A stretch of DNA of 64,000 nt from an uncultured Bacteroidales bacterium (lineage in GTDB: Bacteria > Bacteroidota > Bacteroidia > Bacteroidales > Paludibacteraceae), in NCBI GenBank assembly GCA_902774995.1, contig CACYKR010000010.1, positions 1 through 64,000 on the forward strand, written 5' to 3'. Every line of letters begins with the position of its first letter. The first letter of the stretch is position 1. The position numbers were made by a program, and so were the translations under genes. Shown here piece by piece: positions 677 to 56,922 of this stretch. The notes below the pieces were generated by a model. That model was not told the DNA's origin and did no database searches. It saw nothing but the letters and a program-made list of their open reading frames with translations.

Positions 677-1786
677 TCAGATTATTATTCCACCGCCTAC
701 AAGGAGATTGTCCCGGTAAAAGACAACCGACTGGCCCGGTGTGATTCCCCAGACGGGAGAGGAGAAAAGCGCCTCTCCCGTTTTTTGTTGTCCGGAGAGA
801 CGGACCTGCACCTCGACAGGCGCAGTACGATAACGTATTTTGGCGGTGAGGGGCAGGTCGCCGGGGAAAGGCCGCAGCGGCGTGACAAGGCGGAAACGCA
901 GGGAGGAAGCGTACATTTCATCGTTCGTGCCGAGGGTCACCTCATTGCGCGCGGCGTCGATATGCGTGACGTACGCCGGATGACCGAGAGCAATACCCAG
1001 CCCCTTGCGCTGGCCGATGGTATAGTTGACAAAGCCCTGATGCGTACCTAAGACTTTTCCCTCCGCGTCCACGTAGTTGCCCTCGCGCACGCGCTCATTA
1101 TAATCGGGCACGTTCGCGCGCAGGAAAGCCCGGTAGTCATCGTTGGGGATGAAACAGATCTCCTGACTCTCGCGTTTCTGAACCAGTTTCTCGTAGCCGT
1201 GCTCACGTGCTATCTCGCGCACCCGGTCCTTGGTCAGCCCGCCCAAGGGGAAGATCGTCCGACGGAGCTGGGGCTCGGTAAGCATCCAGAGGAAATAGGT
1301 CTGGTCCTTCTTCTCATCCGCCGCAGTAGCCAAATAGAGGTGTCCGTCCTGCTCCTCGATGCGGGCGTAATGGCCAGTCGCTACATAATCACAACCTAAC
1401 TCATCCGCCACACGCAGGAGTTCACCCCATTTGATATGACTGTTACACAGCACGCAGGGGTTCGGTGTTCTGCCGGACATGTATTCGTCGATGAAGTTGG
1501 CAATGACGCATCGCTTGAAGGTCTCGCGGAAATCAACGATGTGGTGCTCAAAGCCCATCTTCTCTGCATTATGCTTCGCCTCCATGATTGACTCAACGGA
1601 GCAGCACCCTTTCTCCTTCGCCAAGCAGGATTCCTTGATCGAGTCGTAGGTGCGGAACGTCACGCCTACCACCTCGTAGCCCTGCTCCAGAAGGAGCATG
1701 GCCGAAACGGTGGAGTCTATACCGCCGGACATTCCGAGCAAAACCCTGGGTTTTGCATTTGAGATTTGAGATTTGAGATTTGACAT
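677..1786 (-). CDS. mnmA: tRNA-specific 2-thiouridylase MnmA
   Basis: MnmA places sulfur on U34 of Lys, Glu and Gln tRNAs. The 369-residue protein has the PP-loop SGGIDS (residues 20-25), the catalytic cysteine in NPCVLC (C111), and a second conserved cysteine in SQEICF near residue 209. It also has a CCS cluster around residues 61-63, seen in some anaerobe MnmA proteins. The first ten residues (MSNLKSQISN) are encoded by a tandem heptad array, and no other ATG lies in frame before the PP-loop, so the start codon itself appears to come from the repeat. The upstream transporter stop codon directly abuts the start, implying cotranscription. Confidence 0.95.
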   Translation of the reverse strand: MSNLKSQISNAKPRVLLGMSGGIDSTVSAMLLLEQGYEVVGVTFRTYDSIKESCLAKEKGCCSVESIMEAKHNAEKMGFEHHIVDFRETFKRCVIANFIDEYMSGRTPNPCVLCNSHIKWGELLRVADELGCDYVATGHYARIEEQDGHLYLATAADEKKDQTYFLWMLTEPQLRRTIFPLGGLTKDRVREIAREHGYEKLVQKRESQEICFIPNDDYRAFLRANVPDYNERVREGNYVDAEGKVLGTHQGFVNYTIGQRKGLGIALGHPAYVTHIDAARNEVTLGTNDEMYASSLRFRLVTPLRPFPGDLPLTAKIRYRTAPVEVQVRLSGQQKTGEALFSSPVWGITPGQSVVFYRDNLLVGGGIII

Positions 1787-1790
1787 TTAC
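1757..1790. repeat. Heptad array (ATTTGAG word) supplying the mnmA start
   Basis: Five consecutive 7-nt units, mainly ATTTGAG and ATTTGAC, cover the junction of the ABC transporter stop and the mnmA start. The same words recur at 56220-56261 and 56615-56663, so this is a dispersed word and not a private slippage event. Confidence 0.85.
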
Positions 1791-3643
1791 TGCTGCATAT
1801 CAACGAGTTTGGTATAATAACCGCCGAGGGCGTAGAGGTCTTCGTGCGTGCCGCGCTCCACGATACGTCCCTCGTGCATGACGCAGATGAGGTCGGCGTG
1901 GCGGATGGTAGAGAGTCGGTGCGCCACGACGAGGGTCGTCCGCTCTTGCATGAGGTGCTCCAGCGCCTCCTGCACCAGCCTTTCGGACTCGCTGTCCAGC
2001 GCCGAGGTAGCTTCGTCGAGGATGAGAATAGGCGGGTTCTTGAGTATTGCACGGGCTATACTGAGCCGCTGGCGTTGACCGCCGGAGAGACGGCTGCCGC
2101 GGTCTCCGATAACCGTCTGGTAACCTTCCGGCATCCGGACGACGAACTCATGAGCGTTGGCTATCCGTGCCGCCTGCTCCACCGCCTCGGGCCAACTCAT
2201 GCCTGACGGTGCAGGTTGGGTGGTGTCCACGCCGAAAGTGATGTTATTATAGACCGTGTCGTTAAAGAGAATCGGCTCCTGGCAGACAATGCCCATGAGA
2301 GCACGCAGGTCGCGGGTCCGGAACGAACGGATATCCGTACCGTCAATGGTGATAGCGCCTTGCTGCGGGTCATAGAAACGCGGCACGAGGTCAGTGAGCG
2401 TCGTCTTGCCGCTACCCGACTGACCTACCAACGCTACCGTCTTGCCTTTCTCCACCTCCAGCACGATGTCCGTCAGCACCTCCCGCTCGCGGTTATAGCC
2501 GAAATGCACATGGTCGAAAGCAATACACTTGTCAAAAGTCACGGCCTTCGCCTGCTCCGGCTCCCGGATATCCGAGACGGTATTGAGGATTGCGTCAATA
2601 CGCTCCAGCGACGCCATGCCCCGGCGGATGCCGTAAGAGGCTTTGCTGAGATCCTTGGCGGGGTTGATAATCGAATAGAAGATCACCAGATAATAGATGA
2701 ACGTAGCGGCGTCTATGGTGGCATGGTCGCTGAGGATCAGCATTCCTCCGAACCACAGGATAACGGCTATCAGCGCCGTGCCCAGAAACTCCGAGAGAGG
2801 GTGAGCCAGGTAATAACGGCGGTTGATACGGTTGAAGGTTGCCCGCGTGGCGTTGATGAGCGCCGTGAAGCGGAGGCGCAGCTTGTCCTGGGCATTGAAA
2901 CCCTTCACCACACGCAGGCCTAACAAAGTCTCGTCAATGGACGAGAGGATCTCTGCGTTCTGCTCCTGTCCGCGTGCGGAAGCGCGTTTGAGCGAACGGC
3001 CTATACGGCCTATTAAGAAAACCGCCACAGGCATCAACAGCAACACGAAGAGAGTCAGCTGCCATGAGATAACCAGCAGCGTAACGAGATAGACGAGAAT
3101 CATGACCGGATCCTTGAAGAGTATATCCAGCGCACTCATGATAGAAGCCTCCACCTCGCCTACGTCGTTCGTCATACGGCTGATCACATCGCCGCGCCGC
3201 GCCTCCGTGAAATAACCCATCGGCAGCGTCAGCACCTTGTCGTACAGCTGCTGACGCAGATCGCGCAGCACGCCCGTGCGGATAGGTACCATATAGTAGT
3301 TCGCCAGCCACGCTGTGAGGCATTTCAGCCCTGTCATCAGTACCAGGAAGATACCTAACAGGAACAGCACGTACCCCGCGCCGTGAAGCGCAATCTGCTC
3401 GTTGAGCAGGCAGTACATATTCGTCCGTAGGCCTGCTATGAGTTCCTGCAAACCGCTGACGGCAGAGAGATCCACCCGCACAGCCTCCTCCGTGCTGAGC
3501 CCGAACAGGATACGCAGCACCGGAATGATAGCCGCAAACGAGAAGAGCGACAGGACCGTAGAGACCAGGTTGAACAGGATATTCAGCGCCATCTGGCCCT
3601 TGTAGGGCGGTACGAAACGGCGTATGAGCGTAATAAAATGCAT
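1787..3643 (-). CDS. msbA: MsbA-like ABC exporter (permease-ATPase fusion)
   Basis: This 618-residue half-transporter has an N-terminal six-helix exporter domain (about residues 15-320) and a C-terminal nucleotide-binding domain. Walker A is GQSGSGKTT (about 400), the signature is LSGGQRQR, and Walker B is ILILDEAT. Such proteins work as homodimers in the inner membrane. The neighbour lpxK is the classic partner of msbA in Gram-negative bacteria, which favours a role as the lipid A core flippase, but drug or peptide export cannot be excluded from sequence alone. It ends immediately before mnmA and starts 4 nt after lpxK ends. Confidence 0.85.
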   Translation of the reverse strand: MHFITLIRRFVPPYKGQMALNILFNLVSTVLSLFSFAAIIPVLRILFGLSTEEAVRVDLSAVSGLQELIAGLRTNMYCLLNEQIALHGAGYVLFLLGIFLVLMTGLKCLTAWLANYYMVPIRTGVLRDLRQQLYDKVLTLPMGYFTEARRGDVISRMTNDVGEVEASIMSALDILFKDPVMILVYLVTLLVISWQLTLFVLLLMPVAVFLIGRIGRSLKRASARGQEQNAEILSSIDETLLGLRVVKGFNAQDKLRLRFTALINATRATFNRINRRYYLAHPLSEFLGTALIAVILWFGGMLILSDHATIDAATFIYYLVIFYSIINPAKDLSKASYGIRRGMASLERIDAILNTVSDIREPEQAKAVTFDKCIAFDHVHFGYNREREVLTDIVLEVEKGKTVALVGQSGSGKTTLTDLVPRFYDPQQGAITIDGTDIRSFRTRDLRALMGIVCQEPILFNDTVYNNITFGVDTTQPAPSGMSWPEAVEQAARIANAHEFVVRMPEGYQTVIGDRGSRLSGGQRQRLSIARAILKNPPILILDEATSALDSESERLVQEALEHLMQERTTLVVAHRLSTIRHADLICVMHEGRIVERGTHEDLYALGGYYTKLVDMQQ

Positions 3644-7111: not shown

Positions 7112-9277
7112 TTAGAATGGGTATCCTATCGCGAAATGGAACGTCATGTCATCTTTCCACCCCAGCCCGTTATTCGCCGTGCGCCACTGCGTGCCGGCGG
7201 AGATACGGCTCGGATCGTACAGTTTGACTCCGAAATCGATACGGAAAATCAGGATTGAGAGGTCAAAACGCACTCCCACTCCGTAACTCCACGCAATCTG
7301 CTTGTAAAACTCATCAAAGAGGAACACACCGCCCGGTTGGGTCTGATAACTGTCGATGGTCCAGATATTGCCGGCATCGGTGAATGCCGCCAGCTCCATA
7401 TACCGCAGTACCTTGAAGCGGTACTCCAGGCTGGCATCCAGATGGATATCTCCCGCCTGCAGGTCATATACCAGCGCCGAACCCGTTCCGCGGAACGTAC
7501 CGGGGCCCAGTGTACGCGCCTGCCATCCGCGGTTGCCGTTCGCTCCGCCGCCGAAATAGCGTTTCTGGAACGGCACGGCACTCGCGTTGAGGTACGGCAC
7601 TACGACACCTAACCCCAGATGGGTCACCAACTGGTGCTTGGGGTTGATCACGCCGTGGTAGGTGAAATTGAAGTCTCCTTTGGCGTACTGCGCAAACGGT
7701 ATCCGCCAAAGGACGTAAGCCCCATTATTATTCCGCGAGAAACCGCAGGCTTTGCTCAGACCGTAGAGGGCGTTACCCGCCGTCTCTACCTGCAAAGCCA
7801 GCTGTACGTACGAACGCTCGGGATGACGGGCGTTATAGTTGGAATAAGAGCAGGTGTAGCTCCAGTCCAGAATAAAATGATCTTCGTAACTGGCTTTGAA
7901 GACCGAAGACTTGTTCATGAAATCTTCCCGGAACCGGTCTGACACCCATGGCAGGTAGATATAGTTGATATCAACGAGGTTGAACTGGTGGGTCCACCCG
8001 CTGCCGGCTTTCCGGGGGATGATATAACTCAGTCCGGCATTGGCAATCGTACGGGTGTATTCATCCGGCCGTTGCTGGTAGTTATAGGCGATATTCACCT
8101 TCACATTGGACGGGAAGAGCAATCCTGCTTCCGCCTTGGCCTCTATAGCCCGTCCGCCGTTGGCGCGCCATTCATAGGAAGCGCGGCCGCCCAAGGTCAG
8201 TACCTCCGCGCCGTGGAAGATATTCTTGTTGCTGTAGTTCAGCCCGGCAGCTATACCCCAATCGCCTGCGCTGTAAGTTCCCTCCACCTCGGCGGAGACG
8301 GAGTTGAGCTTTCCGCGCGAGACGGTGATACGGCAATCCAGCAGGGAGTCCTCCACCGGCGTGAACGCTATATCGACATACTTCACCGGCGGCAGGGCAT
8401 TCATCCGGGCATAGGTCCGCTCCACGCGCCACTCGGCATAACGGTCTCCGGCCTTTAGACGGCTGGCACGACGCAACGCGTTCTTGCGCAAGAACGGATG
8501 GTCCTGACTGTAGTGCACGTCGCGAATATAATAACGGGTATGGAGCCGCTTGAGAGCTGCGGAGTCGAGTTCCGCCACGTACGGAGCCATATGGATACGG
8601 ATATCCACCTCGTTGGTATTCAACGAACTGTCGGCAGTAAACTCCAGCATCGACTTCTCGAAATAGAAATAGCCTCTGTTCCGGATGGCGGTGGTGATAC
8701 GCGCCCGCTCTTCGTCCAGCACGGAGGTGGAGAACTGCTCGCCTTCACGCACCAGACACCGCTGTTTGTTTTCCGCTATCTTCCGCACATCCGCCATCGG
8801 GATATCCACCTCGTAATGGCGGATCTTGTAGGGTTGGCTTGCGGTCACGAGATACGTCAGCCGGACTTTGCGTTTCTTATATACTTTCTGGGTATCCACA
8901 CGGGCCTGGAAATAGCCCATATTATTCATCTGCTGGCGCAACTGCTGCATGCTCACGCGGGTCAGTTCCTCGTCGTAGATAACGGGGGCTTCTCCCATCT
9001 TATGCGCATTACGCGCCAGCCGTTTGTTGCTCTTCGTGGTCGTGTCCCGGGGAGCCGTGTTATACACATGAAGCTGTAATTTCCAGAAACCGAGAATCTC
9101 GGTGTTCTGCTTCTGACGCAGGTAGTTTCGGAGCGAAGAAGTGGAGACGCTCTTGTCATCCGTACATTTGACGGTCGCCTTGTCCAGCAGATACTCGCCC
9201 TGCGGCACATATTTCGTAGTGCTGCAGGATGCCAGTACGAGGACCAGCGCCAGCAATATGTAGTGCTTACTTCTCAC
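7112..9277 (-). CDS. TamL-type Omp85 family outer-membrane lipoprotein
   Basis: This is a BamA/TamA-superfamily assembly factor of the Bacteroidota kind, anchored by an N-terminal lipid. The best start is a GTG at 9277: it overlaps the TrmH stop by 11 nt and puts a clean lipoprotein signal at the N-terminus (hydrophobic stretch ending LASCS, lipidated Cys about residue 18). The 721-residue protein then has POTRA-like repeats and a C-terminal barrel of about 350 residues with GGANGNRGW and a final aromatic (YPF). TamL proteins are thought to help insert outer-membrane proteins with TamB; no tamB gene is in the window. Confidence 0.85.
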   Translation of the reverse strand: MRSKHYILLALVLVLASCSTTKYVPQGEYLLDKATVKCTDDKSVSTSSLRNYLRQKQNTEILGFWKLQLHVYNTAPRDTTTKSNKRLARNAHKMGEAPVIYDEELTRVSMQQLRQQMNNMGYFQARVDTQKVYKKRKVRLTYLVTASQPYKIRHYEVDIPMADVRKIAENKQRCLVREGEQFSTSVLDEERARITTAIRNRGYFYFEKSMLEFTADSSLNTNEVDIRIHMAPYVAELDSAALKRLHTRYYIRDVHYSQDHPFLRKNALRRASRLKAGDRYAEWRVERTYARMNALPPVKYVDIAFTPVEDSLLDCRITVSRGKLNSVSAEVEGTYSAGDWGIAAGLNYSNKNIFHGAEVLTLGGRASYEWRANGGRAIEAKAEAGLLFPSNVKVNIAYNYQQRPDEYTRTIANAGLSYIIPRKAGSGWTHQFNLVDINYIYLPWVSDRFREDFMNKSSVFKASYEDHFILDWSYTCSYSNYNARHPERSYVQLALQVETAGNALYGLSKACGFSRNNNGAYVLWRIPFAQYAKGDFNFTYHGVINPKHQLVTHLGLGVVVPYLNASAVPFQKRYFGGGANGNRGWQARTLGPGTFRGTGSALVYDLQAGDIHLDASLEYRFKVLRYMELAAFTDAGNIWTIDSYQTQPGGVFLFDEFYKQIAWSYGVGVRFDLSILIFRIDFGVKLYDPSRISAGTQWRTANNGLGWKDDMTFHFAIGYPF

Positions 9278-9992
9278 CTCTTCTGAATTCTGCCAGGACG
9301 ATGGCGGTAGCAATCGACACATTCAGGCTCTCGGATGTCTCTGTGCCCTTGGGATAAGAGGGGATACGGATAGGGTGCGTGACAAATTTCCGCACCTCCT
9401 CGGAGATACCGTTTCCTTCGTTTCCCATAATGATTACTGCGTGACCGGCTTCGGACTGTAAGACTTCATACATATCTTTCCCGTCCAGCAATGTGCCGTA
9501 GAGGGGGCATTGCTGCGTCGCAAGCCACTCGGGCAGGTTCGCATAATGCACACGCACGCGTACAAGCGCCCCCATGGTAGCCTGAACGACCTTGGGGTTA
9601 TAGCAATCGGCGGTGTCGCGGGAACAGACAATATCGTGTACCCCGAACCAGTCACAGGTACGGATAATCGTGCCTAAGTTTCCGGGGTTCTGCACCCCGT
9701 CGAGCACCAGCAAAATCTCTCTCCCCGCCCTCTCCTCAAGAGAGGGAGCTAAAGGAAGGACGGGTTTGCGGAAGACGGCAATAGTGCCTTGTGGCGTTTT
9801 GAGGCCGCTCATCTGCTCTATCTCCGCCCGCGTAGCATTCTCGCCCTCACGGTAGAGATAGAGCAGTTCAAAGCCTTTCTGCAACTCTTCCACGCATTTG
9901 TCCCCTTCGGCTACAAAGAGCCCGAGTTCGTCGCGGAATTTCTTCTGTTGCAGAGAGCGCACCTGTTTTATTTGCGCTTTACTAATGCTCAA
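9267..9992 (-). CDS. TrmH-family (SPOUT) RNA methyltransferase
   Basis: This 241-residue 2'-O-ribose methyltransferase uses the knotted SPOUT fold. The three SPOUT motifs are visible: NPGNLGTIIRTCDWFG, IIMGNEGNGIS and the C-terminal SESLNVSIATAIVLAEF. The substrate (tRNA or 23S rRNA) is not predictable. The start is a TTG at 9992, at the edge of a tandem A/T array, giving MSISKAQIKQVRSL, which matches the usual N-terminus. Between the N-terminal domain and the SPOUT domain the segment APSLEERAGR is encoded by a GC-rich palindromic repeat. It overlaps the Omp85 gene by 11 nt. Confidence 0.9.
   Translation of the reverse strand: MSISKAQIKQVRSLQQKKFRDELGLFVAEGDKCVEELQKGFELLYLYREGENATRAEIEQMSGLKTPQGTIAVFRKPVLPLAPSLEERAGREILLVLDGVQNPGNLGTIIRTCDWFGVHDIVCSRDTADCYNPKVVQATMGALVRVRVHYANLPEWLATQQCPLYGTLLDGKDMYEVLQSEAGHAVIIMGNEGNGISEEVRKFVTHPIRIPSYPKGTETSESLNVSIATAIVLAEFRRGEK
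9719..9757. repeat. GC-rich palindromic repeat in frame inside the TrmH-family gene
   Basis: CCCTCTC (9728-9734) and GAGAGGG (9740-9746) form a perfect 7-bp hairpin with loop CTCAA, flanked by further C-rich/G-rich sequence. A very similar element lies in frame in the outer-membrane receptor at 34171-34200, and the dnaK terminator has related words. Confidence 0.75.
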
Positions 9993-9994
9993 TT

Positions 9995-10023
9995 TTGAAT
10001 TTTTAATTTTTAATTTTTAATTC
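9995..10023. repeat. Octamer array (TAATTTTT) between trmH and thrS
   Basis: About three and a half copies of an 8-nt T-rich unit fill the 29-nt gap between the TTG start of the methyltransferase gene and the TGA stop of thrS. Confidence 0.75.
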
Positions 10024-11965
10024 AATACGCGTTCATCTGCGCTTTAACCGTCTCGTTGATGAAATCGGCGAACTCCTGAATGGTCATGGAGCCCTTCTCC
10101 TCTGCGCCTTGCTGGCGGACGGAGACAAGACCCTGCTCCGCCTCTTTCTCACCGACGATAAGCATGTACGGAATACGTTTCAGTTCGTTGTCGCGGATCT
10201 TACGGCCCAGTTTCTCGTTGCGGTCATCTACGATAACGCGGACGTCCTGAGCCTCCAGCATCTCTTTCACTTTCCATGCGTACTCGTTGCTCTTCTCGGA
10301 GATCGGCAGTACCACCGCCTGGTCCGGCGTCAGCCAGAGCGGGAACTTGCCCGCCGTATGCTCGATGAGGACGGCTACGAAACGCTCCATGGAGCCGAAC
10401 GGCGCACGGTGGATCATGACGGGACGGTGTTTCTGGTTGTCTTCGCCCGTGTATTCCAGTTCAAAGCGCTCCGGCAGGTTGTAGTCCACTTGGATGGTAC
10501 CGAGTTGCCAACGACGACCGAGGGCATCCTTTACCATGAAGTCGAGTTTCGGACCATAGAAAGCCGCTTCGCCGGTCTCTTCGCGAGCGGGGAGGTTCAT
10601 TTCTTTGCAAGCCTCGCGGATAGCGTTCTCTGCGTGCTCCCATATCTCGTCAGAACCCACGTATTTCTCGTGGTTGTTCGGGTCACGGAGGGATATCTGC
10701 GCCTCGTAGTTCTCGAAGTTAAGCGCCTTGAAGATGATATTGATGATCTCCATGACGCGGATAAACTCTTGTTTCACCTGGTCCTGACGGCAGAAGATAT
10801 GGGCATCGTCCTGCGTGAACGAACGCACGCGGGTCAAGCCGTGCAGCTCGCCGCTCTGCTCGTAGCGATAGACCGTACCGAACTCCGCGCAGCGGAAGGG
10901 CAGATCCTTGTAGCTCTTCGGGCTGTTCTTGTATATCGCGCAGTGGTGCGGGCAGTTCATCGGCTTAAGCATATATACCTCGCCTTCCTCCGGCGTGGTG
11001 ATAGGCTGGAAGGAGTCCTTGCCGTAGTGGTCCCAGTGACCGGAAGTCATATACAGCTGCTTGGAACCGATATGCGGAGTGATGACCTGCTGGTAACCGT
11101 AGCGCTTCTGGATTTTCTTCAGGAAATCCTCCAGACGCAGACGCAACGCCGTGCCTTTCGGCAGCCAGATAGGCAGACCTTTGCCTACCATGTCGGAGAA
11201 CATGAACAGCTCTAATTCCTTGCCTATCTTACGGTGGTCACGTTTCTTCGCCTCTTCGAGCAGTGCCAGATACTCGTCCAGCATTGCTTTCTTCGGGAAG
11301 GAGATACCGTAGATACGGGTCATCATAGGCCGTTTCTCATCGCCGCGCCAGTAAGCCGCGGAGCAACTCAGCACTTTGACTGCCTTGATCGGCTCGGTGC
11401 TCAGGAGGTGCGGACCCTTGCAAAGGTCGGTAAACGCACCCTGCGTATAGGTGCTGATATGGCCGTCCTCCAGCTCGCTGATCAGTTCGCATTTGTACGT
11501 CTGACCTTTGTCGCCGAACGCCTTCAGCGCATCGGCTTTGGAGATTGACTTCTTGACCAGTTGCTCTTTCTTCGCGCGCAACTCCATCATTTTTGCCTCG
11601 ATAGCCGGGAAGTCGGTATCTTTGATAACCACGCCCTCGGGCGGCATCACGTCGTAATAGAACCCGTTCTCGATAGCGGGACCTATACCGAACTGGATAC
11701 CCGGATACAACTCCTGCAGCGCTTCCGCCATAAGGTGGCTGGAGGTGTGCCAGAAAGCATGCTTCGCTTCCTCGTCCTCCCATTTGTGCAACTTGATAGC
11801 CGCATCCTCGGTAATGGGGGTATTCAATTCTACAATCTTCTCATTGATACTTGCGCACAGAATATCCTGCGCCAGACGTGTGCTGATCGACTCAGCTACC
11901 TGCAGCGGCGTCACGCCGCTCTCATACTCACGGACGCCTCCGTCCGGAAAAGTAATTTTAATCAT
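10022..11965 (-). CDS. thrS: Threonyl-tRNA synthetase
   Basis: ThrRS charges tRNA-Thr and edits mis-charged serine. The start chosen, MIKITFPDG at 11965, matches the normal N-terminus; an in-frame ATG ten codons upstream is less likely. The 647-residue protein has an N-terminal TGS domain, an editing domain with HTSSHL and the class II catalytic core ([36 protein letters not shown] region), then a C-terminal anticodon-binding domain. Its promoter at about 12005-12035 is divergent from that of the endonuclease gene. Confidence 0.97.
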
Positions 11966-13290: not shown

Positions 13291-13303
13291 GATTCATCCT
13301 CTC

Positions 13304-13359
13304 CTTTGTACTTTGTACATCGTCCCTTTGTACGTTGTACATCGTCCCTTTGTACATTT
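13304..13359. repeat. Array of TACTTTG/CCCTTTG words between convergent genes
   Basis: TTTGTAC and ATCGTCCC words alternate in about two and a half 20-nt units, between the end of the endonuclease gene and the stop codon of the DUF4301 gene. The stop codon lies in the last unit. Confidence 0.8.
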
Positions 13360-17738: not shown

Positions 17739-17824
17739 GAGGAAGGGTCATTTTCTTCAATTTATCGGGTTTAGCGTGTATGCAAACGCCTTGATACACA
17801 ATAGATTATAAGATAGCTATCGGA

Positions 17825-17868
17825 GGCAAGTCGGAGTCATATCGGAGTCATATCGGAGTCAAATGCTG
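17825..17868. repeat. 11-nt tandem array (GTCATATCGGA)
   Basis: Four consecutive 11-nt units, GGCAAGTCGGA, GTCATATCGGA twice and GTCAAATGCTG, lie in the 359-nt gap between the M16 gene and the membrane protein gene. The gap also holds the M16 promoter and a terminator; no gene was seen in it. Confidence 0.85.
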
Positions 17869-24486: not shown

Positions 24487-24522
24487 AAACTCCCCCACTC
24501 CGGCAAGGGAGAGGGGGAGTTT
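24487..24522 (-). terminator. Terminator of dnaK
   Basis: AAACTCCCCC (24487-24496) pairs perfectly with GGGGGAGTTT (24513-24522). It lies 36 nt beyond the dnaK stop. Its inner sequence (CAAGGGAGAGGGGGAG) resembles the palindromic elements inside the TrmH and receptor genes. Confidence 0.8.
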
Positions 24523-24557
24523 CATTGACCATTAGGTCATTTACGATTTGGTCATTT
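24523..24557. repeat. Array of GGTCATTTA words after dnaK
   Basis: CCATTAGGTCATTTA and CGATTTGGTCATTTA form two 15-nt units between the terminator and the dnaK stop codon. They share words with the era/tdh array. Confidence 0.7.
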
Positions 24558-24558
24558 A

Positions 24559-26607: not shown

Positions 26608-27501
26608 TCATGTCAGGTCGTAACCGTAATGCTTGAGGCGGGAGATGTTGGAACGCCAATCTTTGTCCACTTTGACGAAGAGCTGGAGGAAGACCTGCTT
26701 CCCGAAGAAGTCCTCTATGTCCTTGCGAGCTTGCGAGCCGACGCGCTTGAGGGCAGAACCGGCCTTGCCGATGATTATGCCCTTCTGGGAGTCGCGCTCG
26801 CAGTAGATGACGGCATCTATGCGGATGAGTTTGTCCTCTTCCTTGAAGGACTCCACCTCCACCTCGACGGAGTACGGGATTTCCTTGTCGTAGTTGAGGA
26901 GGATCTTCTCGCGGATAATCTCATCTACGAAGAACCGTGCCGGTTTGTCGGTGAGTTGGTCTTTGGGGAAGAACGGCGGTCCGACAGGCAGTGCTTCTTT
27001 GATGGCATCGAAGAGCTGCGCTACGCCGAAACGCTCCTGTGCGGAAATGGGGAATATTTCAGCCTCGGGCAGTTGGTTGTGCCAGAAAGCCACAAGGGAC
27101 TCCAGCGTCTCCTGGGTAGTAAGGTCAATCTTATTGATAATAAGGAACACGCGCGTACCTGCCGCAGCCATGCGCTTTACCTTCTCCAGAAAATCGGCAT
27201 TGCGGTCGGCAGTGTCCTGCGGTTCGGTCACATAGAGGAGCACGTCGGCATCCACGAGGGCGGAGCGGCTGAACTCCAGCATCTTCTCCTGCAAGCGGTA
27301 GTTCGGGGAGAGGACACCCGGTGTATCGGAATAGACCATCTGGAAATCCTCGCCGTTGACGATACCGAGGATGCGGTGGCGGGTAGTCTGCGCCTTCGAG
27401 GTAATGATGGACAGACGCTCGCCCACCAAGGCGTTCATGAGGGTCGATTTGCCTACGTTGGGGTTGCCAACAATATTTACAAACCCGCTCTTATGTACCA
27501 T
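26608..27501 (-). CDS. era: GTPase Era
   Basis: Era binds 16S rRNA and is needed for 30S subunit assembly. From the start at 27501 the protein is 297 residues: MVHKSGFVNIVGNPNVGKST (G1 loop), DTPG (G3), NKID (G4), and a C-terminal KH domain (GIIIGKAGSALKRVG). Two further in-frame ATGs at 27516 and 27531 arise because a 15-nt unit (ATGGTAAATGACAAA) is tandemly repeated. The most upstream overlaps the tdh stop. The third ATG fits the family best. Confidence 0.94.
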   Translation of the reverse strand: MVHKSGFVNIVGNPNVGKSTLMNALVGERLSIITSKAQTTRHRILGIVNGEDFQMVYSDTPGVLSPNYRLQEKMLEFSRSALVDADVLLYVTEPQDTADRNADFLEKVKRMAAAGTRVFLIINKIDLTTQETLESLVAFWHNQLPEAEIFPISAQERFGVAQLFDAIKEALPVGPPFFPKDQLTDKPARFFVDEIIREKILLNYDKEIPYSVEVEVESFKEEDKLIRIDAVIYCERDSQKGIIIGKAGSALKRVGSQARKDIEDFFGKQVFLQLFVKVDKDWRSNISRLKHYGYDLT

Positions 27502-27533
27502 TTTGTCATTTACCATTTTGTCATTTACCATTC
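27498..27533. repeat. 15-nt array carrying three in-frame ATGs at the era start
   Basis: ATGGTAAATGACAAA is repeated twice plus a partial copy. Each copy carries an ATG in the era frame, and the tdh stop codon (TGG TAA) is within the first copy. Confidence 0.85.
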
Positions 27534-28553: not shown

Positions 28554-28592
28554 CTTTGTACTTTGTACTTTGTCCCTTTGTCACTTCGTCAA
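28554..28592. repeat. Heptad array (TACTTTG) between tdh and kbl
   Basis: TTTGTACTTTGTACTTTGTCCC and related words fill the 30-nt gap and run into the last codons of kbl. The same words occur at 13304-13359 and, as TACTTGG, at 40434-40812. Confidence 0.8.
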
Positions 28593-29774: not shown

Positions 29775-29818
29775 AATTGCTTTTTTGTTATAGCGACCTT
29801 AGTACGACGTTAGCCTTG

Positions 29819-40433: not shown

Positions 40434-40469
40434 TCCTTGGTACTTGGTACTTCGTCCCTTGGTTCTTTA
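40434..40469. repeat. Heptad array (TACTTGG) between zapA and the coiled-coil gene
   Basis: CTTGGTACTTGGTACTTCGTCCCTTGG words fill the 33-nt gap and include the stop of the coiled-coil gene. Confidence 0.8.
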
Positions 40470-40742: not shown

Positions 40743-40812
40743 CCTTACACTTGGTACTTGGTACTTGGTACTTAGTCCCTTGGTACTTGGTACTTAGTCC
40801 CTTGGTACTTAG
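40743..40812. repeat. Long heptad array (TACTTGG/TACTTAG/TCCCTTGG)
   Basis: About nine 7-8-nt units, in which the order TACTTGG-TACTTAG-TCCCTTGG is itself repeated, fill the gap between the coiled-coil gene and the DUF3078 gene and contain the DUF3078 stop codon (TAA at 40809-40811 on the minus strand). Confidence 0.88.
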
Positions 40813-42023
40813 AAACTGTATCCTACGCCCAGACCGATCACGCCCTTGAACTGAACGCGCTCAGCCTCAAAACCGTCTTTGTCGGCGATGAGCGTTCCGT
40901 TGTAGTATTTCAGGCTGGTCTGGAGAGTCACCTGCAGACATTTCAGGAACTGGTAACTCAACGCCACGTCCCAGTCCACATCAAAATTACCGAACTGGCG
41001 GTTCTTGTTCGAATAACGGAAATAGCCGTCATAGGTCTGACCGGGGTTAGCCTTCTCGAACGCCTCTTTCACGTCAAAGCCCTTGCCCTGGTACGGAGTG
41101 AAGAGCGCCAGCGTGGTACTGAGCTTGAAATCCTTGTAGGTGTAAGCGATAGCACCCTTGAAGCTCAAACCGAACTCAGCGCGGAAGTCACGCAGCGTCT
41201 GGTTGCCCGCCTCGTCATAGGTGTAGGTACCGACCGTCTGCTGCAGGGTGCTGCGCAGGTCTGCCTTGTTCTCCACCATCTTGTCGAAGTCATAAGCGGC
41301 TACGGCTGCGTCGTAAGCGGTTTGGTCAATCGCGCCGGTGTTCAACTGGTAATCCAGCGCACCCATGTAAGCCTCCTTGGTATAACGCTTGTTCCACGCG
41401 TCGCCGGTATAAGCCGTGGAGATACGGCCGGCTATCGGAGAGAGATAAACGCTGAAATCAGCACCCTTGTAGCTGTACTTGTAGTCAATACCGACAGAGA
41501 TATCGGTATAGGACGGAGCCAGCCATTTGGAGATGATATTGTTGTATCCCTCCGTGTAGTTGCGGCCGAGGGCGTACTGGCTCTGGAAGCCGCCCAGTAC
41601 CGTCAAATACCAGTTTTTCTTGAACTCCCATCCGAACTTGGTAGCCAGTTTGATGTTATCGCTGGATTTTTGGAAAGCGTCCTCCTTCTGGTCAATCCAG
41701 GTCATACCGAAATCGGTGTCAAAATTGGTTTCCCAAGCGATAGCATCCTTGTGATAGAGGAGGTGCAGCTTGGCATACGCGATACCGTTTACATTATTCT
41801 TACCGCCGGCTGCCCAGTTCACCAGCCCCGTAGCGGCAGCGTTCAGACCTACAGTACCATCGAATTTCCACGCTTTCTCGCCGGTATCCAGTTTCTTGAG
41901 ATCACCCGCAGCCTTCTCAGCTGCCTCCGCCTTGTCCGTTACAAGCGCCTTGTCCACATCCTGGGCGTTCATTGTCAGCGCCGCCATCAGGCAAAGCGCT
42001 ACAGATAAAATTGATTTCTTCAT
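40809..42023 (-). CDS. DUF3078 outer-membrane beta-barrel protein
   Basis: The 404-residue protein has a signal peptide (about 1-20, ending MNAQ) and a DUF3078 barrel with the opening WKFDGTVGLNAAATGLVNWA and NTNFDTDFGMTW-type strands, ending in an aromatic (GVGYSF). Such proteins are common outer-membrane proteins in Bacteroidota; no function is proven. It has its own promoter and leads the division operon. Confidence 0.88.
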   Translation of the reverse strand: MKKSILSVALCLMAALTMNAQDVDKALVTDKAEAAEKAAGDLKKLDTGEKAWKFDGTVGLNAAATGLVNWAAGGKNNVNGIAYAKLHLLYHKDAIAWETNFDTDFGMTWIDQKEDAFQKSSDNIKLATKFGWEFKKNWYLTVLGGFQSQYALGRNYTEGYNNIISKWLAPSYTDISVGIDYKYSYKGADFSVYLSPIAGRISTAYTGDAWNKRYTKEAYMGALDYQLNTGAIDQTAYDAAVAAYDFDKMVENKADLRSTLQQTVGTYTYDEAGNQTLRDFRAEFGLSFKGAIAYTYKDFKLSTTLALFTPYQGKGFDVKEAFEKANPGQTYDGYFRYSNKNRQFGNFDVDWDVALSYQFLKCLQVTLQTSLKYYNGTLIADKDGFEAERVQFKGVIGLGVGYSF

Positions 42024-42227: not shown

Positions 42228-42282
42228 ACACACTTATGGCGTACTTATTGCGCACTAATCGCGCACTTATCACGCACTAATT
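42228..42282. repeat. 11-nt tandem array (GCGCACTTATC)
   Basis: Five 11-nt units (ACACACTTATG, GCGTACTTATT, GCGCACTAATC, GCGCACTTATC, ACGCACTAATT) lie in the 552-nt gap between DUF3078 and the 1204-residue cargo gene. The rest of the gap holds two promoters and a palindrome; no gene was accepted. Confidence 0.88.
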
Positions 42283-46210: not shown

Positions 46211-49200
46211 TTGAATATATTATTCAGTCAGCATCCGGAGATTGCAGCCGCAAACCGGGAGTTGGCAAAAGGGAAGGTGTGCCACCTTCTCTTAACCGGT
46301 CTGCACGCGAGCGCCCGTGCATTAGCGCTTACGCACGTGAAGGCTCCGCTGTTCATCGTGCTGGATAACGCGGAGGCTGCCCAGTACCTCTACGGCGATT
46401 TCCGGTCGCTGGGAGCCAACGCACTCTTCTTCCCCTCCAGCAAACGGCGCAGGACGACGGACGAGGCAATGGTCATCCAGCGCACAGAGGTGCTGGCTTC
46501 GCTTAGCAAACAGGCAGCAGAAGGCGCTCTGCAGATCGTAGTGACCTACCCGGAGGCTATCGCTGAGACCGTACCGTTGCAGAAAGACCTTACCGGCCGC
46601 AGCCTCACGCTCAAGGCCGGGCAAGAGATACAACAGACGGAGATCAGCCGCCAACTGACAGAACTGGGATTTGAGCACGTGGATTTCGTCTTCCAGCCCG
46701 GCCAGTACGCCATCCGCGGAAGTATCATCGATATCTACAGCTACAGCCATGACAACCCTTACCGTTTCGACTTCTTCGGCGACGAGATAGACTCCATCCG
46801 CGAGTTCGACATAGAGGACCAGTTGTCCAAGAACAAAGTCAACGAAGCTACCGTCACCGCTTCGCCTTCCTCCCCGGAAGGAGACAACGCGGCTACTATC
46901 ATAGATTACCTGGCGGAACAGACCATCTGGGTAAGCAACGACTGGAGCGTAGTACAGTATAAATCGGAGGGCTTAGGTCTCGGCAGTCTGGGCGTGGAGG
47001 AACGCCGGACGATAGAGATAGCGTCCAAGAGCACTTTCCCTACGCATAGCAAAATCAGCTACGACACCCTACCCCAACCGGTCTTCCACAAGCAGTTCGA
47101 CCTGCTCACGGAGGATATCAAACGGCATATCGGCGAGGGGTATCAAATCTATATTCTCGCCGAGCAGCAGAAGCAACTCGACCGCCTGAGAGCAATCATG
47201 GAAGCGACCCTTGACAATGCCGATGAGGCGAAAGAGGGGCTGTTTATCGGTGTCAATGCCACGCTGCATGAAGGGTTCGTAGATAACGGACTGAAAATCT
47301 GCTGCTATACCGACCACCAGATCTTCGAGCGTTACCACCGCGTGACGATGGCGAGCGAGAACGCCCGCCGCGGCAAGGCTATCATCACCCTCCGCGAGAT
47401 CAACCAGCTCCAGATAGGCGATTACGTAGTACACTCCGACCACGGTATTGCGAAGTTCGGCGGGCTCGTCACGACGCCTGTCAACGGCAAGCCGCAGGAG
47501 ATGATCAAGCTCAACTACCGCGACGGCGCAAACGTCTTTGTATCCATCCATAACCTCCACCGCATCTCCAAATACAAAGGCCGCGAGGGATCGGAACCGA
47601 CGATAGCCAAGTTAGGCAGCGGCGCGTGGGAGCGACTCAAAGAGCGGACCAAAGAGAAAGTCAAAGATATAGCCCGCGACCTGATCCGGCTCTACGCTAC
47701 CCGCAAGCAGCAGAAAGGCTTCGCCTACTCGCCCGACGGCTACATGCAGCACGAGCTGGAGGCCTCGTTCCTGTACGAAGACACGCCCGACCAGGCAAAG
47801 GCTACCGCCGATATCAAACGCGACCTGGAGAGCCCGATGCCGATGGACCGCCTCGTCTGCGGCGATGTAGGATTCGGCAAGACCGAGGTGGCTATGCGTG
47901 CCGCCTTCAAGGTAGCTACGGACGGCAAACAGGTAGCCGTACTGGTACCGACCACCGTGCTGGCATTGCAACACTACAACACCTTCCGCGAACGGATGAA
48001 GAACCTGCCGGTACGGATAGAATACCTCAGCCGTCTGAAAAGCCCGAAAGAGATCAAAGAGCTGCTCGCCGACCTGGAGGCAGGCAAGATAGATATCCTC
48101 ATCGGCACCCACAAACTCATCGGCAAGTCCGTCAAATGGCACGACCTGGGACTGCTGATTATCGACGAGGAGCAGAAGTTCGGCGTAGCAGCCAAAGAGA
48201 AGCTGAAGACGCTCCGTACGAACATTGACGTACTGACCCTCACGGCGACACCTATCCCGAGGACCTTGCAGTTCTCGCTCTTAGGGGCACGGGATCTGAG
48301 CGTCATGACCACTCCGCCGCCCAACAGGTACCCCGTACAGACCGAACTCATCACCGTGGAGGACGAGGACCTTATTAAAGAGGCGATAGACTTAGAGATG
48401 GAGCGCAACGGACAGGTGTTCATCGTCAACAACAGGATTGAGATGATCCCCCGTATCGAGAACCGCATCCGCAAACTCTGCCCCGAAGCCCGTATCATCA
48501 CCGCCCACGGCCAGATGCCTGCGGGCGAGATGGAGGAGAGGCTGGAAGCGTTTATCAACTATGACTACGACATCCTCATCTCCACCACCATTATTGAGTC
48601 CGGCGTAGATATACCGAATGTCAATACAATCTTGATTTTCAGCGCCAACCACTATGGTCTGGCAGACCTGCACCAGTTGCGCGGAAGGGTCGGTCGCTCC
48701 AACCGCAAGGCGTACTGCTACCTCATTGCGCCGCAGAAAGAGCTGCTGACCGACGATGCCCGCCGCCGTCTGGAAGCGTTAAGCACGTTTGCGGAATTAG
48801 GCGCCGGTTTCAACCTCGCCATGCAGGACCTCGATATACGCGGAGCGGGAAACATGCTCGGCTCCGAGCAATCGGGCTTCATCGCCGACCTCGGATACGA
48901 GACCTACCAGCGCATCCTCAACGAAGCCGTGGAGGAACTGCGCGAAGAGGAAGGACTCGGTTCCGATGAAGGCCAAATGGCAAATGGTAAATGGACAAAT
49001 GAGAAAATGAACTGGTGCTCCGACAGCCAGCTGGAGACCGATCTGCCTGTCAGTTTCCCGACGGATTATATCGAAAACATATCCGAGCGCATCACCCTCT
49101 ACCGCGAGCTGGACAACCTCAACAGCGAGGAGCAGCTGCTGGACTACCGCAAGCGTCTGATAGACCGTTTCGGCGTACTGCCGGAGCCGGCGGAGGAACT

Positions 49201-49495
49201 GCTGAGCGTGGTACGGCTGAGATGGCTCTGCTGCCGGCTGGGTATCGAGAAGATCCTCCTCAAACAGGAGCGGATGACCCTTTACCTCGTACAGCATAAA
49301 GACGCCTACTGGCAATCGGAGATATTCGGAAACATCATCCAATATGCCGTCTCACGCGCCGAACGGTGCTCGCTGCACGAGGAGAAAGACAAGAAAGGTA
49401 TCCCCACCGGACGGCGGTACGTCACCATCACCAACGTAAAAACAATAGCAGGGGCTATCACCTTGCTGACCAAGATAGAAAAAGGAGAATTATGA
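46211..49495 (+). CDS. mfd: Transcription-repair coupling factor Mfd
   Basis: Mfd removes stalled RNA polymerase and recruits UvrA. The start is a TTG at 46211; no ATG or GTG lies in frame between the previous stop and it. The 1094-residue protein has the UvrB-like N-terminal domain, the RNA polymerase-interacting domain (QIGDYVVHSDHGIAKFGG), the translocase with VCGDVGFGKTE and IIDEEQKFGV, and the TRCF C-terminal domain. In the linker before that domain, QMANGKWTNEKM (about residue 921) is encoded by a heptad array. It overlaps kdsB by ATGA. Confidence 0.96.
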   Translation: MNILFSQHPEIAAANRELAKGKVCHLLLTGLHASARALALTHVKAPLFIVLDNAEAAQYLYGDFRSLGANALFFPSSKRRRTTDEAMVIQRTEVLASLSKQAAEGALQIVVTYPEAIAETVPLQKDLTGRSLTLKAGQEIQQTEISRQLTELGFEHVDFVFQPGQYAIRGSIIDIYSYSHDNPYRFDFFGDEIDSIREFDIEDQLSKNKVNEATVTASPSSPEGDNAATIIDYLAEQTIWVSNDWSVVQYKSEGLGLGSLGVEERRTIEIASKSTFPTHSKISYDTLPQPVFHKQFDLLTEDIKRHIGEGYQIYILAEQQKQLDRLRAIMEATLDNADEAKEGLFIGVNATLHEGFVDNGLKICCYTDHQIFERYHRVTMASENARRGKAIITLREINQLQIGDYVVHSDHGIAKFGGLVTTPVNGKPQEMIKLNYRDGANVFVSIHNLHRISKYKGREGSEPTIAKLGSGAWERLKERTKEKVKDIARDLIRLYATRKQQKGFAYSPDGYMQHELEASFLYEDTPDQAKATADIKRDLESPMPMDRLVCGDVGFGKTEVAMRAAFKVATDGKQVAVLVPTTVLALQHYNTFRERMKNLPVRIEYLSRLKSPKEIKELLADLEAGKIDILIGTHKLIGKSVKWHDLGLLIIDEEQKFGVAAKEKLKTLRTNIDVLTLTATPIPRTLQFSLLGARDLSVMTTPPPNRYPVQTELITVEDEDLIKEAIDLEMERNGQVFIVNNRIEMIPRIENRIRKLCPEARIITAHGQMPAGEMEERLEAFINYDYDILISTTIIESGVDIPNVNTILIFSANHYGLADLHQLRGRVGRSNRKAYCYLIAPQKELLTDDARRRLEALSTFAELGAGFNLAMQDLDIRGAGNMLGSEQSGFIADLGYETYQRILNEAVEELREEEGLGSDEGQMANGKWTNEKMNWCSDSQLETDLPVSFPTDYIENISERITLYRELDNLNSEEQLLDYRKRLIDRFGVLPEPAEELLSVVRLRWLCCRLGIEKILLKQERMTLYLVQHKDAYWQSEIFGNIIQYAVSRAERCSLHEEKDKKGIPTGRRYVTITNVKTIAGAITLLTKIEKGEL
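48972..49008. repeat. Heptad array in frame in mfd
   Basis: AAATGG-CAAATGG-TAAATGG-ACAAATG-AGAAAATG, read in the gene's frame, encodes QMANGKWTNEKM. The words match the era and receptor arrays. Confidence 0.85.
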
Positions 49496-50238
49496 AATTC
49501 ATAGGAATCATTCCCGCCCGGTACGCTTCCACGCGTTTCCCCGGCAAACCATTGGCAGAGATATGCGGCAAGACCGTCATCCGCCGTGTATATGAGCAAG
49601 CCTCCAAGGCACTTGACACCGTAGTCGTAGCTACGGATGATGAGCGTATCTACAATGACGTAGAGTCTTTTGGCGGCAAAGTAGTAATGACCCGCCCGGA
49701 CCACAAGTGCGGTACCGACCGCTGCCTGGAGGCCTATCTGGCAATCACTACGCCTACCTGGCGCGAGCAGAACAACGCCGAGACCGTAGTCATCAATATC
49801 CAGGGCGACGAGCCGTTTATCCAACCCGAGCAGATAGAGACGCTCATGGCTTGTTTTGACCGCCCAGATACAGACATAGCTACACTCGTACAACCCTTTG
49901 CAGAGGATAAGAACGCTATCGAAAACCCCAACTCGCCCAAGGTGGACTGGGACATTGAGAGCGCCCGAGCGAAGATGTTCTCACGCAAGGTGATAGCCGC
50001 CTCCGACGGCAAGTATTACAAGCACATCGGTATCTACGCTTACCGCGCCGACGTGCTGGCCAAGATCACCACGCTGCCCCAGAGCCCGCTGGAGATAGCC
50101 GAGCGGCTGGAGCAACTGCGATGGCTGGAGAACGGATATACCATCCGCGTAGGCGTCACCTCGCAATCCACCATCGGCATCGACACCCCCGAGGACCTGC
50201 AAAAGGCAATCGAGTGGTATAAGTATAACGGGGATTGA
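49492..50238 (+). CDS. kdsB: 3-deoxy-manno-octulosonate cytidylyltransferase
   Basis: KdsB makes CMP-Kdo for lipopolysaccharide core synthesis. From the ATG at 49492 (MKFIGIIPARYASTRFPGKP) the 248-residue enzyme shows the nucleotide-binding R-Y-x-S-x-R-x-P-G-K motif, VVVATDDERI, NIQGDEPFI and the C-terminal GIDTPEDL. The start overlaps the mfd stop (ATGA). The stop codon (GATTGA) is within a heptad array. Confidence 0.96.
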   Translation: MKFIGIIPARYASTRFPGKPLAEICGKTVIRRVYEQASKALDTVVVATDDERIYNDVESFGGKVVMTRPDHKCGTDRCLEAYLAITTPTWREQNNAETVVINIQGDEPFIQPEQIETLMACFDRPDTDIATLVQPFAEDKNAIENPNSPKVDWDIESARAKMFSRKVIAASDGKYYKHIGIYAYRADVLAKITTLPQSPLEIAERLEQLRWLENGYTIRVGVTSQSTIGIDTPEDLQKAIEWYKYNGD

Positions 50239-50266
50239 TAATTGATAATTGATAATTGACATTTGA
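50234..50266. repeat. Heptad array (ATAATTG) after kdsB
   Basis: GATTGATAATTGATAATTGATAATTGACATTTGA: four 7-nt units starting inside the last codons of kdsB. The word carries TGA and TAA, and because 7 is not a multiple of 3 it places stops in all frames. Confidence 0.85.
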
Positions 50267-56235: not shown

Positions 56236-56261
56236 TTGAGATTTGACATTTTGTCATTTAG
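56220..56261. repeat. Heptad array (ATTTGAG/ATTTGAC) at the ruvB start
   Basis: Six units of 7-8 nt join the ruvB start to the stop codon of the ABC ATPase gene (TGA at 56254-56256). The word is the mnmA word. Confidence 0.85.
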
Positions 56262-56922
56262 TAGCCTCGCGAAAGAGAGATTCCAAATCCGGGATCTGTT
56301 TCATGGGCATATCGGCTTTGACGGTACCATGGTCGAGGATAATAATCCGGTCGCACATCTCACGCACCTCCTGGAGGATATGGGTGGACAAAATCACCGT
56401 CTTAGCCGAATTGGTCAGTTTCCTGATGAGTGCGCGTATCTCAACGAGTTGGTTGGGGTCGAGACCCGTGGTAGGTTCATCCAAGATGAGCAGTTCGGGG
56501 TTGCCTATCAGCGCCTGGGCGAGACCGACACGCTGCCGGTAGCCTTTGGACAGCTCCCGGATGTGCTTGTGGCGTTCGGGAGTGAGCCCGACTAGGTCGA
56601 TGAGGGGATCTACTATTTGAGATTTGACATTTGAGATTTGAGATTTGTCATTTGTCATTTCAGCCATGAAGCCGAGATACTCGGCTACGTACATCTCCTC
56701 GTAGAGAGGGTTGTTCTCCGGGAGATAGCCTATACGGGGAGGAGCCTGCACAACGCCGGAGTCCGCATTCCAGAGGCCGATGAGAATTTTCATCAGCGTC
56801 GATTTGCCGGCTCCGTTGGGCCCCAGCAAGCCGACAATCTGACCGTCGGGGATGGAGAGCGTGATATCCCGGAGGACTTGCTGCGCGCCAAAAGACTTAT
56901 TCAGATGCTCTATTTGAACCAT
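56254..56922 (-). CDS. GldA-like ABC transporter ATPase
   Basis: The 222-residue ATPase has Walker A GPNGAGKST, the GldA-family block IGYLPENNPLY, signature LSKGYRQR and Walker B LLILDEPTTGLDPNQ. GldA works with GldF/GldG in gliding and type IX-associated systems, but no permease gene lies here, so its partner is unknown. The loop [14 protein letters not shown] (about 89-102) is encoded by seven heptads and replaces the usual linker of similar length. It has a consensus promoter. Confidence 0.85.
   Translation of the reverse strand: MVQIEHLNKSFGAQQVLRDITLSIPDGQIVGLLGPNGAGKSTLMKILIGLWNADSGVVQAPPRIGYLPENNPLYEEMYVAEYLGFMAEMTNDKSQISNVKSQIVDPLIDLVGLTPERHKHIRELSKGYRQRVGLAQALIGNPELLILDEPTTGLDPNQLVEIRALIRKLTNSAKTVILSTHILQEVREMCDRIIILDHGTVKADMPMKQIPDLESLFREATK
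56615..56663. repeat. Seven-unit heptad array in frame in the ABC ATPase gene
   Basis: Seven in-phase 7-nt units: ATTTGAG, ATTTGAC, ATTTGAG, ATTTGAG, ATTTGTC, ATTTGTC, ATTTCAG. This is the cleanest array in the window and lies wholly inside a coding region. Confidence 0.92.

Follow-up and report, generated by a model that had tools for sequence, protein, structure and literature searches.

Genome-specific vocabularies of tandem heptamers at stop codons and in protein loops point to possible word copying in some Bacteroidales

The 64,000-nt stretch of DNA analyzed here, referred to as the window, comes from an uncultured Bacteroidales bacterium of the Paludibacteraceae (contig CACYKR010000010.1) and contains short tandem word arrays, most often with a 7-nt unit, at gene borders and within genes. 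Comparison with related genomes showed that the vocabulary of these arrays is genome specific, that the arrays are concentrated at stop codons, where units can be in phase with a terminal TAA, that some encode in-frame protein loops, and that near-identical genes can carry different words. Because of the word differences at the junction between an ABC ATPase gene and ruvB and between proteins with identical cores, the arrays seem to result from a repeat process that turns over fast and has its anchor at stop codons, and they do not look like conserved regulatory sites. We tentatively propose that some Bacteroidales copy words genome wide, with heptamers from a small species-specific lexicon being inserted at stop codons and in protein loops and whole words being swapped within a species, a process that may rewrite operon spacers and the loops and tails of essential enzymes many times faster than the surrounding genes.

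The window's genome comprises 2.18 Mb in 114 contigs (86.7% complete), of which the window and a further 384 kb (448 kb altogether) were sampled. Sampled genomes, loci and database proteins are labeled G, L and P, respectively. Relatives of the window identified through Era, with identities of up to 95%, were Paludibacteraceae or Bacteroidales metagenome-assembled genomes (MAGs), mostly from rumen and gut. Chance levels were obtained from order-1 Markov sequences built per segment in five replicates. In the 448 kb, 46 period-7 arrays were detected, half of them outside called genes, compared to an expectation of 0.4; for periods of 4 to 30 nt, there were 135 arrays compared to 5.2. ATTTGAGATTTGA had 50 matches in the 2.18 Mb, some of them overlapping, and its reversed letters had none. 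Composition or chance was ruled out as the source by the Markov controls. An assembly artifact is also unlikely, as most arrays were 20 to 60 nt long, they occurred in many independent MAGs, and the frame was open in all 30 of the ABC ATPase loci described below. Array density (periods of 5 to 24 nt) was 22 to 33 per 100 kb in G000, G034, G022, G014 and G006, ∼14 per 100 kb in G011 and G027, and 0 to 6 per 100 kb in four genomes from other families of the order (the G055 sample covering only 21.5 kb). In G011, which belongs to the same genus, 1 of 29 arrays had a period of 7, and the commonest periods were 11, which ranked first, and 8. Dense 7-nt arrays were also present at Bacteroidales loci beyond the best-matching set (L084, L087, L096, L097, L099, L106 and L108), indicating that the trait is patchy and reaches beyond the genus.

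Association with stop codons was surveyed in five genomes, representing five species of the genus, in which genes were called, giving 814 stop codons with a called neighbor; arrays of 7, 8, 14 or 15 nt were counted if their start fell between −25 and +8 from the end of the stop. An array was detected at 83 of the 814 stops, or about one sampled gene in ten. Array-bearing stops numbered 55 of 292 in co-directional gaps of 5 to 80 nt, 18 of 211 in longer ones and 4 of 173 in gaps of <5 nt, and 6 of 66 and 0 of 72 in convergent gaps of >80 nt and shorter, respectively. Coverage was 0.1 to 0.4% at 60 to 30 nt before the stop end, 10% at +6 to +12 and 1.1% at +60. With random intergenic placement as the expectation (periods of 5 to 15 nt, five genomes), 68 stop contacts were observed compared to 19.2 expected, and there were 28 start contacts compared to 20.4, starts being called less well. 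Coverage before called starts was 6.6 to 7.1% of genes at −30 to −12 nt. When only gaps of >150 nt were considered, arrays starting within 15 nt of the stop numbered 7 at 119 co-directional and 5 at 46 convergent stops, which are small numbers, and beyond this peak there was about one array per 30 nt; at 110 divergent starts, 4 arrays ended within 15 nt and 4 more at 30 to 45 nt.

Spacer length was also examined. The pooled density of period-7 arrays was 4.62 per kb in co-directional spacers of 5 to 80 nt and 0.40 to 0.42 per kb in longer co-directional, convergent and divergent gaps, an enrichment of about 10-fold over other intergenic DNA; none were found in the 0.9 kb of short convergent or divergent gaps. 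Calculated per junction, arrays were present at 53 of 292 short co-directional, 36 of 211 longer co-directional, 7 of 33 long convergent and 10 of 66 long divergent junctions (0.15 to 0.21) and at 0 of 20 short convergent or divergent gaps. Because the per-junction rates were alike in the first four of these classes, we read this as each junction that ends a gene offering one main target, the stop codon, and not as a per-base rate. Divergent gaps have no stop and therefore need another site.

The sharing of words was examined within and between genomes. A word was shared by 65 of 1,415 array pairs within a genome (4.6%) and by 33 of 4,256 pairs between genomes (0.8%). Identical-word pairs, scored in stretches not chosen for ATTTGAG, were compared to a letter-permuted null: 18 pairs were observed among the 26 arrays of G000 (1.6 expected), 32 among the 39 arrays of G034 (4.4 expected) and 14 among the 24 arrays of G014 (0.9 expected), and in each case the observed number was reached by 0 of 300 shuffles. 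Sharing in these three genomes also exceeded a null of local flanking 7-mers. Words within a genome were often one base apart. As the 56 word classes include chance dimers, of which simple arithmetic predicts ∼27 in 448 kb, only words at three or more places were used; nine classes occurred as perfect dimers at this many places in the G000 sample and four in that of G034. For the ATTTGAG family of G000, 76 units were parsed at 15 loci. These included 37 ATTTGAG and 18 ATTTGAC units, no other one-step variant exceeded two units, and both main words were present at 10 of the 15 loci. Loci were selected in the first parse by the two main words, and a selection symmetric for one-step variants gave the same loci and counts. 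Copying from a pool of units is a simpler explanation for this two-word mix at 10 loci than a repeated G-to-C change.

Words were also present inside protein-coding genes. The ABC ATPase preceding ruvB was compared at 30 loci, including that of the window, which were the best 30 of 57 matching genomes among 61 searched. The alignment was nearly free of gaps except at the ends and in some loops. Loop 1 ranged from 11 to 33 residues and was plainly word encoded in several species of the genus: NSQFSIVNSQFSIVNSQFS in L122 was encoded by AATTCTC/AATTGTC units, TNRQIVKSSNLQIV in L114 by AAATCGTC units, and the window's own loop by AAATGAC/AAATCTC. Loop 2 of L115 was likewise encoded by CCCATCA units, and the loops of L119 and L124 were short and nonrepetitive. 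A 6-residue peptide encodable by a perfect heptamer array was detected in 47 of 108 loops and 22 of 32 distinct loops (108 of 120 listed ABC proteins being parsed), compared to 0.02 such peptides per protein elsewhere. Further in-gene arrays in the window's genome were found in XseA, an Omp85-family protein, a C69 peptidase, a FecR protein and glycosyltransferases. As a separate observation, repeats of 16 to 23 nt with a core like GCRAAGCGGTCT also occupied protein loops (ABC loop 1 of L127 and L128) and borders, as at L011:2856-2905.

Near-identical genes were compared as database proteins, and some differences in Era and MnmA tails may reflect start-site annotation. An identical 203-residue ABC core was present in P0003, P0012 and P0016, with the loops EMTNDKSQISNLKSQIVDP, EMTNDKSSNLKSQIVDP and EMTNLNCQLSTVNS, respectively; the last of these matches the translation of AACTGTC units, and AACTGTC is present in the window's own genome. 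In P0010, QMTNL replaced QISNL, which we read as a probable exchange of one AAATCTC unit for AAATGAC. Among pairs with four or fewer core differences (105 ABC, 120 Era and 110 MnmA proteins being parsed from the 120 listed for each), change per residue was 0.066 in the ABC slot and 0.013 in the core. Tail and core values were 0.54 and 0.009 for Era and 0.070 and 0.007 for MnmA, the MnmA tail rate being based on just 4 of 75 close pairs, those that had at least three edits, and tail rates being open to the effect of start-site calls. The length and word changes seen between near-identical proteins were in frame, and no on/off states were seen.

At the junction between the ABC stop and the ruvB start, 29 of the 30 loci were comparable. 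The two genes overlapped or were separated by ≤7 nt in 16 species, 3 had spacers without a clear array, and 10, including the window's own, had arrays. Arrays were called at a tandem score of at least 10 (nine loci), with the window's own array in addition. The nine scored 10 to 25, and each score was reached by at most 1 of 1,000 shuffles of the spacer letters; scores of the three other spacers were reached by 60 to 932 of 1,000. Words varied by species and included TAACCCR, TAAATTG, TAAATCG, TAAACTGT and AAATCTC. In seven array-bearing species, the ABC gene ended with TAA, which formed the first three bases of a unit in five and did so with one mismatch in two; the three species with TGA or TAG had no phase between stop and unit. 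By eye, 7 of 36 loci had an array at the era start (decayed in two cases) and 5 of 36 had one at the era stop, with words differing between loci. A tree of the 30 ABC cores had low resolution, with 18 of its 27 inner branches open, and parsimony on this tree, with L134 left out, required 8 changes of array presence. We therefore claim that array presence has changed repeatedly, but claim no direction for these changes.

The explanation that we favor, at odds that we judge to be about even, is copying of units between arrays through short matches combined with slippage, with selection acting on position and frame; the copying step is one that we infer. A replicating or repairing strand would pair through a few bases (TAA, TGA or ATG, one or other of which is contained in many words) with an array elsewhere, copy one or more units and then return. 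Units of 7 nt, and sometimes of 8 or 15 nt, would likely be copied from arrays of the same genome and then probably be expanded by slippage. Selection would retain inserts only in places that tolerate a shift of 7n bases, namely, in stop-start gaps of neighboring genes, at protein ends and in surface loops in frame with a stop-free orientation. The products may for the most part be neutral or selfish filler. They could nevertheless be of some use, because a 7-nt period carries TAA or TGA through all three frames, so that a few units would close every frame between operon genes.

Several observations weigh against this proposal. Gene borders came from our own simple open reading frame caller, for which stops are reliable and starts are not. 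Part of the stop excess is trivial, since an array that holds a stop and lands in a gene end makes a new end; a stop codon was contained in 38 of 85 stop-side arrays. There was no excess of stop contacts in G011 (1 compared to 2.2 expected), no identical-word pair among the 10 arrays of G006, and among the 8 arrays of G022 a single pair that was reached by 20 of 300 permutations, a weak result. G000, G034 and G006 had a strong short-spacer contrast, and G014 (2.1 versus 0.2 to 0.7) and G022 (2.8 versus 0.5 to 2.6) had a weaker one. In L096 and L097, two Bacteroidales MAGs with 94% DNA identity, three arrays were unchanged or had one base changed, which indicated that words are not replaced everywhere at every step. 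Two 8-nt arrays differed between these MAGs by 13 to 14 nt and some bases and one 7-nt array differed by 39 nt in length, and such changes within the same kind of word fit slippage equally well. Finally, a copying event was not directly observed, and unit changes in the closest pairs were deduced because these pairs are known only as proteins. The same two MAGs also contained inverted heptamer arrays flanking a short core, resembling the terminal repeats of miniature elements (L097:12981-13072 and L096:3358-3470); the copy at L097:12981-13072 was missing from L096.

Local replication slippage alone, with arrays growing in place from a 7-nt stretch and purifying selection sparing gene borders and loops, is an unlikely explanation. 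The phasing of units on the TAA of the native stop, the length changes between L096 and L097 and the lack of an identical-word excess in G006 are all consistent with it, and an excess of heptamers in bacteria was earlier ascribed to polymerase slippage (Mrazek 2007, cited in PMC4679880). However, slippage in place does not readily produce word sharing above both nulls in G000, G034 and G014, the same two-word mix at two-thirds of the family's loci, the occurrence of TAACCCR and TAAATCG at different genes in different species, or a whole-word change between identical protein cores.

A selected function, in which operon spacers would close all frames after the stop and leave the region leading to the next start unstructured, in bacteria that we take to rely little on Shine-Dalgarno sites, is quite unlikely. 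The high density of period-7 arrays in short co-directional spacers would be expected under such a function, as would the finding that the array spanned about half or more of the spacer in 51 of 53 cases. Furthermore, among 89 arrays in co-directional gaps, all three frames were closed in the sense direction only in 27 and in the antisense direction only in 5. Occupancy was nevertheless not conserved at the ABC-ruvB junction or at either end of era, rates per junction were alike in short co-directional gaps and in long gaps of all three orientations, the same kind of words occurred within proteins, and G011 had almost no period-7 arrays despite belonging to the same genus.

Writing of units by a dedicated enzyme, such as a short-template reverse transcriptase or a transposase of the type associated with repetitive extragenic palindromes (REP), is improbable, although genome-specific vocabularies and two-word mixes that look templated would suit it. 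In searches of 41 genomes, RVT_1 was matched in 10 and Y1_Tnp in 17. No RVT_1 match was found in the array-rich but incomplete genomes G000, G034, G022, G014 and G006, and Y1_Tnp, weakly matched in G000 and G022, was not found in the incomplete genomes G034, G014 and G006. As neither was found in these last three, a shared cause of the arrays is unlikely to lie in an RVT_1 reverse transcriptase or a Y1 transposase. On the same evidence the arrays do not resemble diversity-generating retroelements, nor do they resemble REP elements with their associated transposases (RAYT) or miniature inverted-repeat transposable elements, since the main words are also nonpalindromic. A palindromic dispersed element, ACCCCCTCTCAGAGGGGGAGAAG, was observed separately at 9 loci in the 448-kb sample and adjoined ATTTGAG arrays at L023:9580-9627 and L025:10735-10781. 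It is very improbable that the words are bound by a regulator or an RNA-binding protein, the role proposed for TAACTGA repeats (PMC4679880): the arrays adjoin starts and stops as those repeats do, but there are several unrelated words per genome, in both orientations and in coding loops, and there was no conservation at the orthologous junctions examined. A single regulatory element family was ruled out by the diversity of words at orthologous sites.

Within the window, 18 arrays were listed: a called gene border was no more than 60 nt away from 12 of them, 3 lay in long intergenic regions and 3 inside genes; shorter arrays at 18663 and 40436 were detected only by Tandem Repeats Finder (TRF). 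The arrays and the host gene of the ABC loop were as follows.

1757..1788, minus strand: three ATTTGAG units and ATTTGAC, where the ABC exporter gene 1787-3643 stops (TAA) and mnmA starts
9991..10022, minus strand: 7-nt AATTAAA array filling the spacer between 10022-11965 and 9267-9992
13303..13355, unstranded: higher-order unit of 22 nt (7+7+8) made up of TTTGTAC words, between convergent genes
24522..24558, minus strand: 15-nt array of the AAATGAC/AAATGGT type, immediately 3' of the dnaK stop codon
26514..26549, minus strand: 8-nt array (ACTAGTAA) in the era-dnaK gap
27496..27532, minus strand: 15-nt AAATGGT/AAATGACA array spanning the alcohol dehydrogenase stop and the era start, with the predicted N-terminal tail MVNDKMVNDKMVHKS
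28554..28591, minus strand: AAAGTAC/AAAGGGAC words from the aminotransferase stop to the alcohol dehydrogenase start
40436..40452, minus strand: TACTTGG words where 40143-40433 borders on 40467-40742
40749..40810, minus strand: TACTTGG array with a 22-nt higher-order unit, from the stop of 40809-41987 to the next gene
50234..50266, plus strand: ATTGATA/ATTGACA array, the first unit of which contains the cytidylyltransferase stop codon
51775..51807, plus strand: 17-nt repeat filling the spacer as far as the yidC start codon
56220..56251, minus strand: AAATGTC/AAATCTC array filling the spacer from the ABC stop to the ruvB start
56615..56660, minus strand: in-frame array encoding an ABC ATPase loop, inside gene 56254-56922
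56254..56922, minus strand: ABC ATPase host gene (PF00005), 222 amino acids

In the mnmA sense, the array at 1757..1788 reads AAATGTC/AAATCTC, and its frame is open as a predicted N-terminal tail starting MSNLKSQISN; MnmA homologues have many different word-like tails. Other in-gene arrays of the window were at 32391, within 31877-34342, and at 48974 (TRF only), within 46211-49495. The 7+7+8 higher-order unit was constant at 13303-13355, 28554-28591 and 40749-40810 while the words differed (CTTTGTA and CTTGGTA), as if homogenized in each array. Arrays of 11 nt, often GC rich (CGCGATAAGTG, CCGACGGTCAA and TCGGAGTCATA), formed a separate class, mostly in long intergenic regions (17820-17861, 29816-29859 and 42232-42278 in the window; L012:9578, L017:8212, L019:4213 and L022:3636), and had no preference for short spacers (0.20 per kb compared to 0.31 in longer co-directional gaps). 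Elsewhere, a region of ∼5 kb at L026:9414-14201 contained nine 7-, 8- or 15-nt arrays within and between four adjacent genes (THUMP-like, SpoIID, glycosyltransferase and unknown).

These results bear on a first-pass annotation of the window made from its letters. TRF recovered the arrays that it had named: ATTTGAG at 1757, 56220 and 56615, and TACTTNG words at 13304, 28554, 40436 and 40749. It also recovered arrays at 9991, 26510, 27496, 48974, 50234 and 51775. Arrays at gene borders were confirmed, but "about twenty" such borders was too high a number, and a role as junction elements only did not hold, as the arrays at 56615-56660, 32391 and 48974 lie inside genes and arrays also occur in frame in protein loops. 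The view that distant loci share a vocabulary not readily explained by independent slippage was upheld by sharing above the nulls and by the two-word mix. One fixed family was not found, the vocabulary being species specific. Placement at both start and stop codons was borne out beyond chance for stops and was less clear for starts, and the 11-nt arrays at 17820, 29816 and 42232 stood apart as a class in having no preference for short spacers. In the scan against composition controls that it had proposed, arrays exceeded chance and clustered at stops, and in the comparison of orthologous junctions, these carried different words or none.

The closest known system is that of the TAACTGA heptamer repeats. 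Passages of MacGregor 2015 (PMC4679880) describe TAACTGA arrays from Beggiatoaceae, Cyanobacteria and five Bacteroidetes, with two sets in Paludibacter, and some of these arrays overlap stop codons. In that account, forward repeats close all three frames, reverse repeats code within open reading frames, mostly at protein ends, and related heptamers are rarely or never repeated in the same genomes. The present arrays are similar in being dispersed heptamers a few nucleotides upstream of start codons, some of them over the upstream stop. In contrast to that single word, several words recur per genome here and are species specific, and the arrays concentrate at stops, occupy loops of conserved enzymes and change between near-identical genes. 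The lists of top words, with up to 14 for each sampled genome, did not include TAACTGA (class AACTGAT), and AACTCAT occurred in G014. Since neither the word itself nor the rarity of similar repeated heptamers was found here, the arrays were not assigned to the TAACTGA class as described in those passages, although their positions are alike.

Other repeat systems were also compared. The short tandemly repeated repetitive (STRR) sequences of heterocystous cyanobacteria are likewise dispersed intergenic heptanucleotide arrays, with few words. At contingency loci, copy changes of a simple sequence repeat (SSR) near a start can shift the frame if the unit length is not divisible by three; the present arrays, unlike these, are often degenerate or word mixed and lie in or beside housekeeping genes (era, mnmA, ruvB and dnaK) and not surface genes alone. 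Heptamer units are common among prokaryotic long SSRs and satellites, including dispersed satellites such as GATAGRA in Chloroflexus (Mrazek 2007, cited in PMC4679880; PMC6749651). Those examples come from other phyla, the main text of PMC6749651 does not contain "bacteroid," and passages of it include no turnover at orthologous sites. Our literature searches found no description of this form of array. The annotation's remark that it knew of no described Bacteroidales family has to be qualified, as TAACTGA arrays are known in five Bacteroidetes according to passages of PMC4679880. What is new here is that the vocabulary contains multiple words and is specific to the species, that anchoring at stops was measured across five genomes, that slots lie inside conserved enzymes, and that words change between genes that are nearly identical.

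If the proposed copying is correct, gene ends and the loops of housekeeping proteins would rapidly gain in-frame insertions of a kind that ordinary substitution models and annotation pipelines would miss, and the calling of starts and stops, operon spacing and protein families of gut bacteria would be affected. The proposal makes testable how tandem words spread between unlinked bacterial sites and whether the heptamer period persists because stop codons move through all frames. Furthermore, it may unite scattered reports of heptamers, such as TAACTGA and STRR, under one process.

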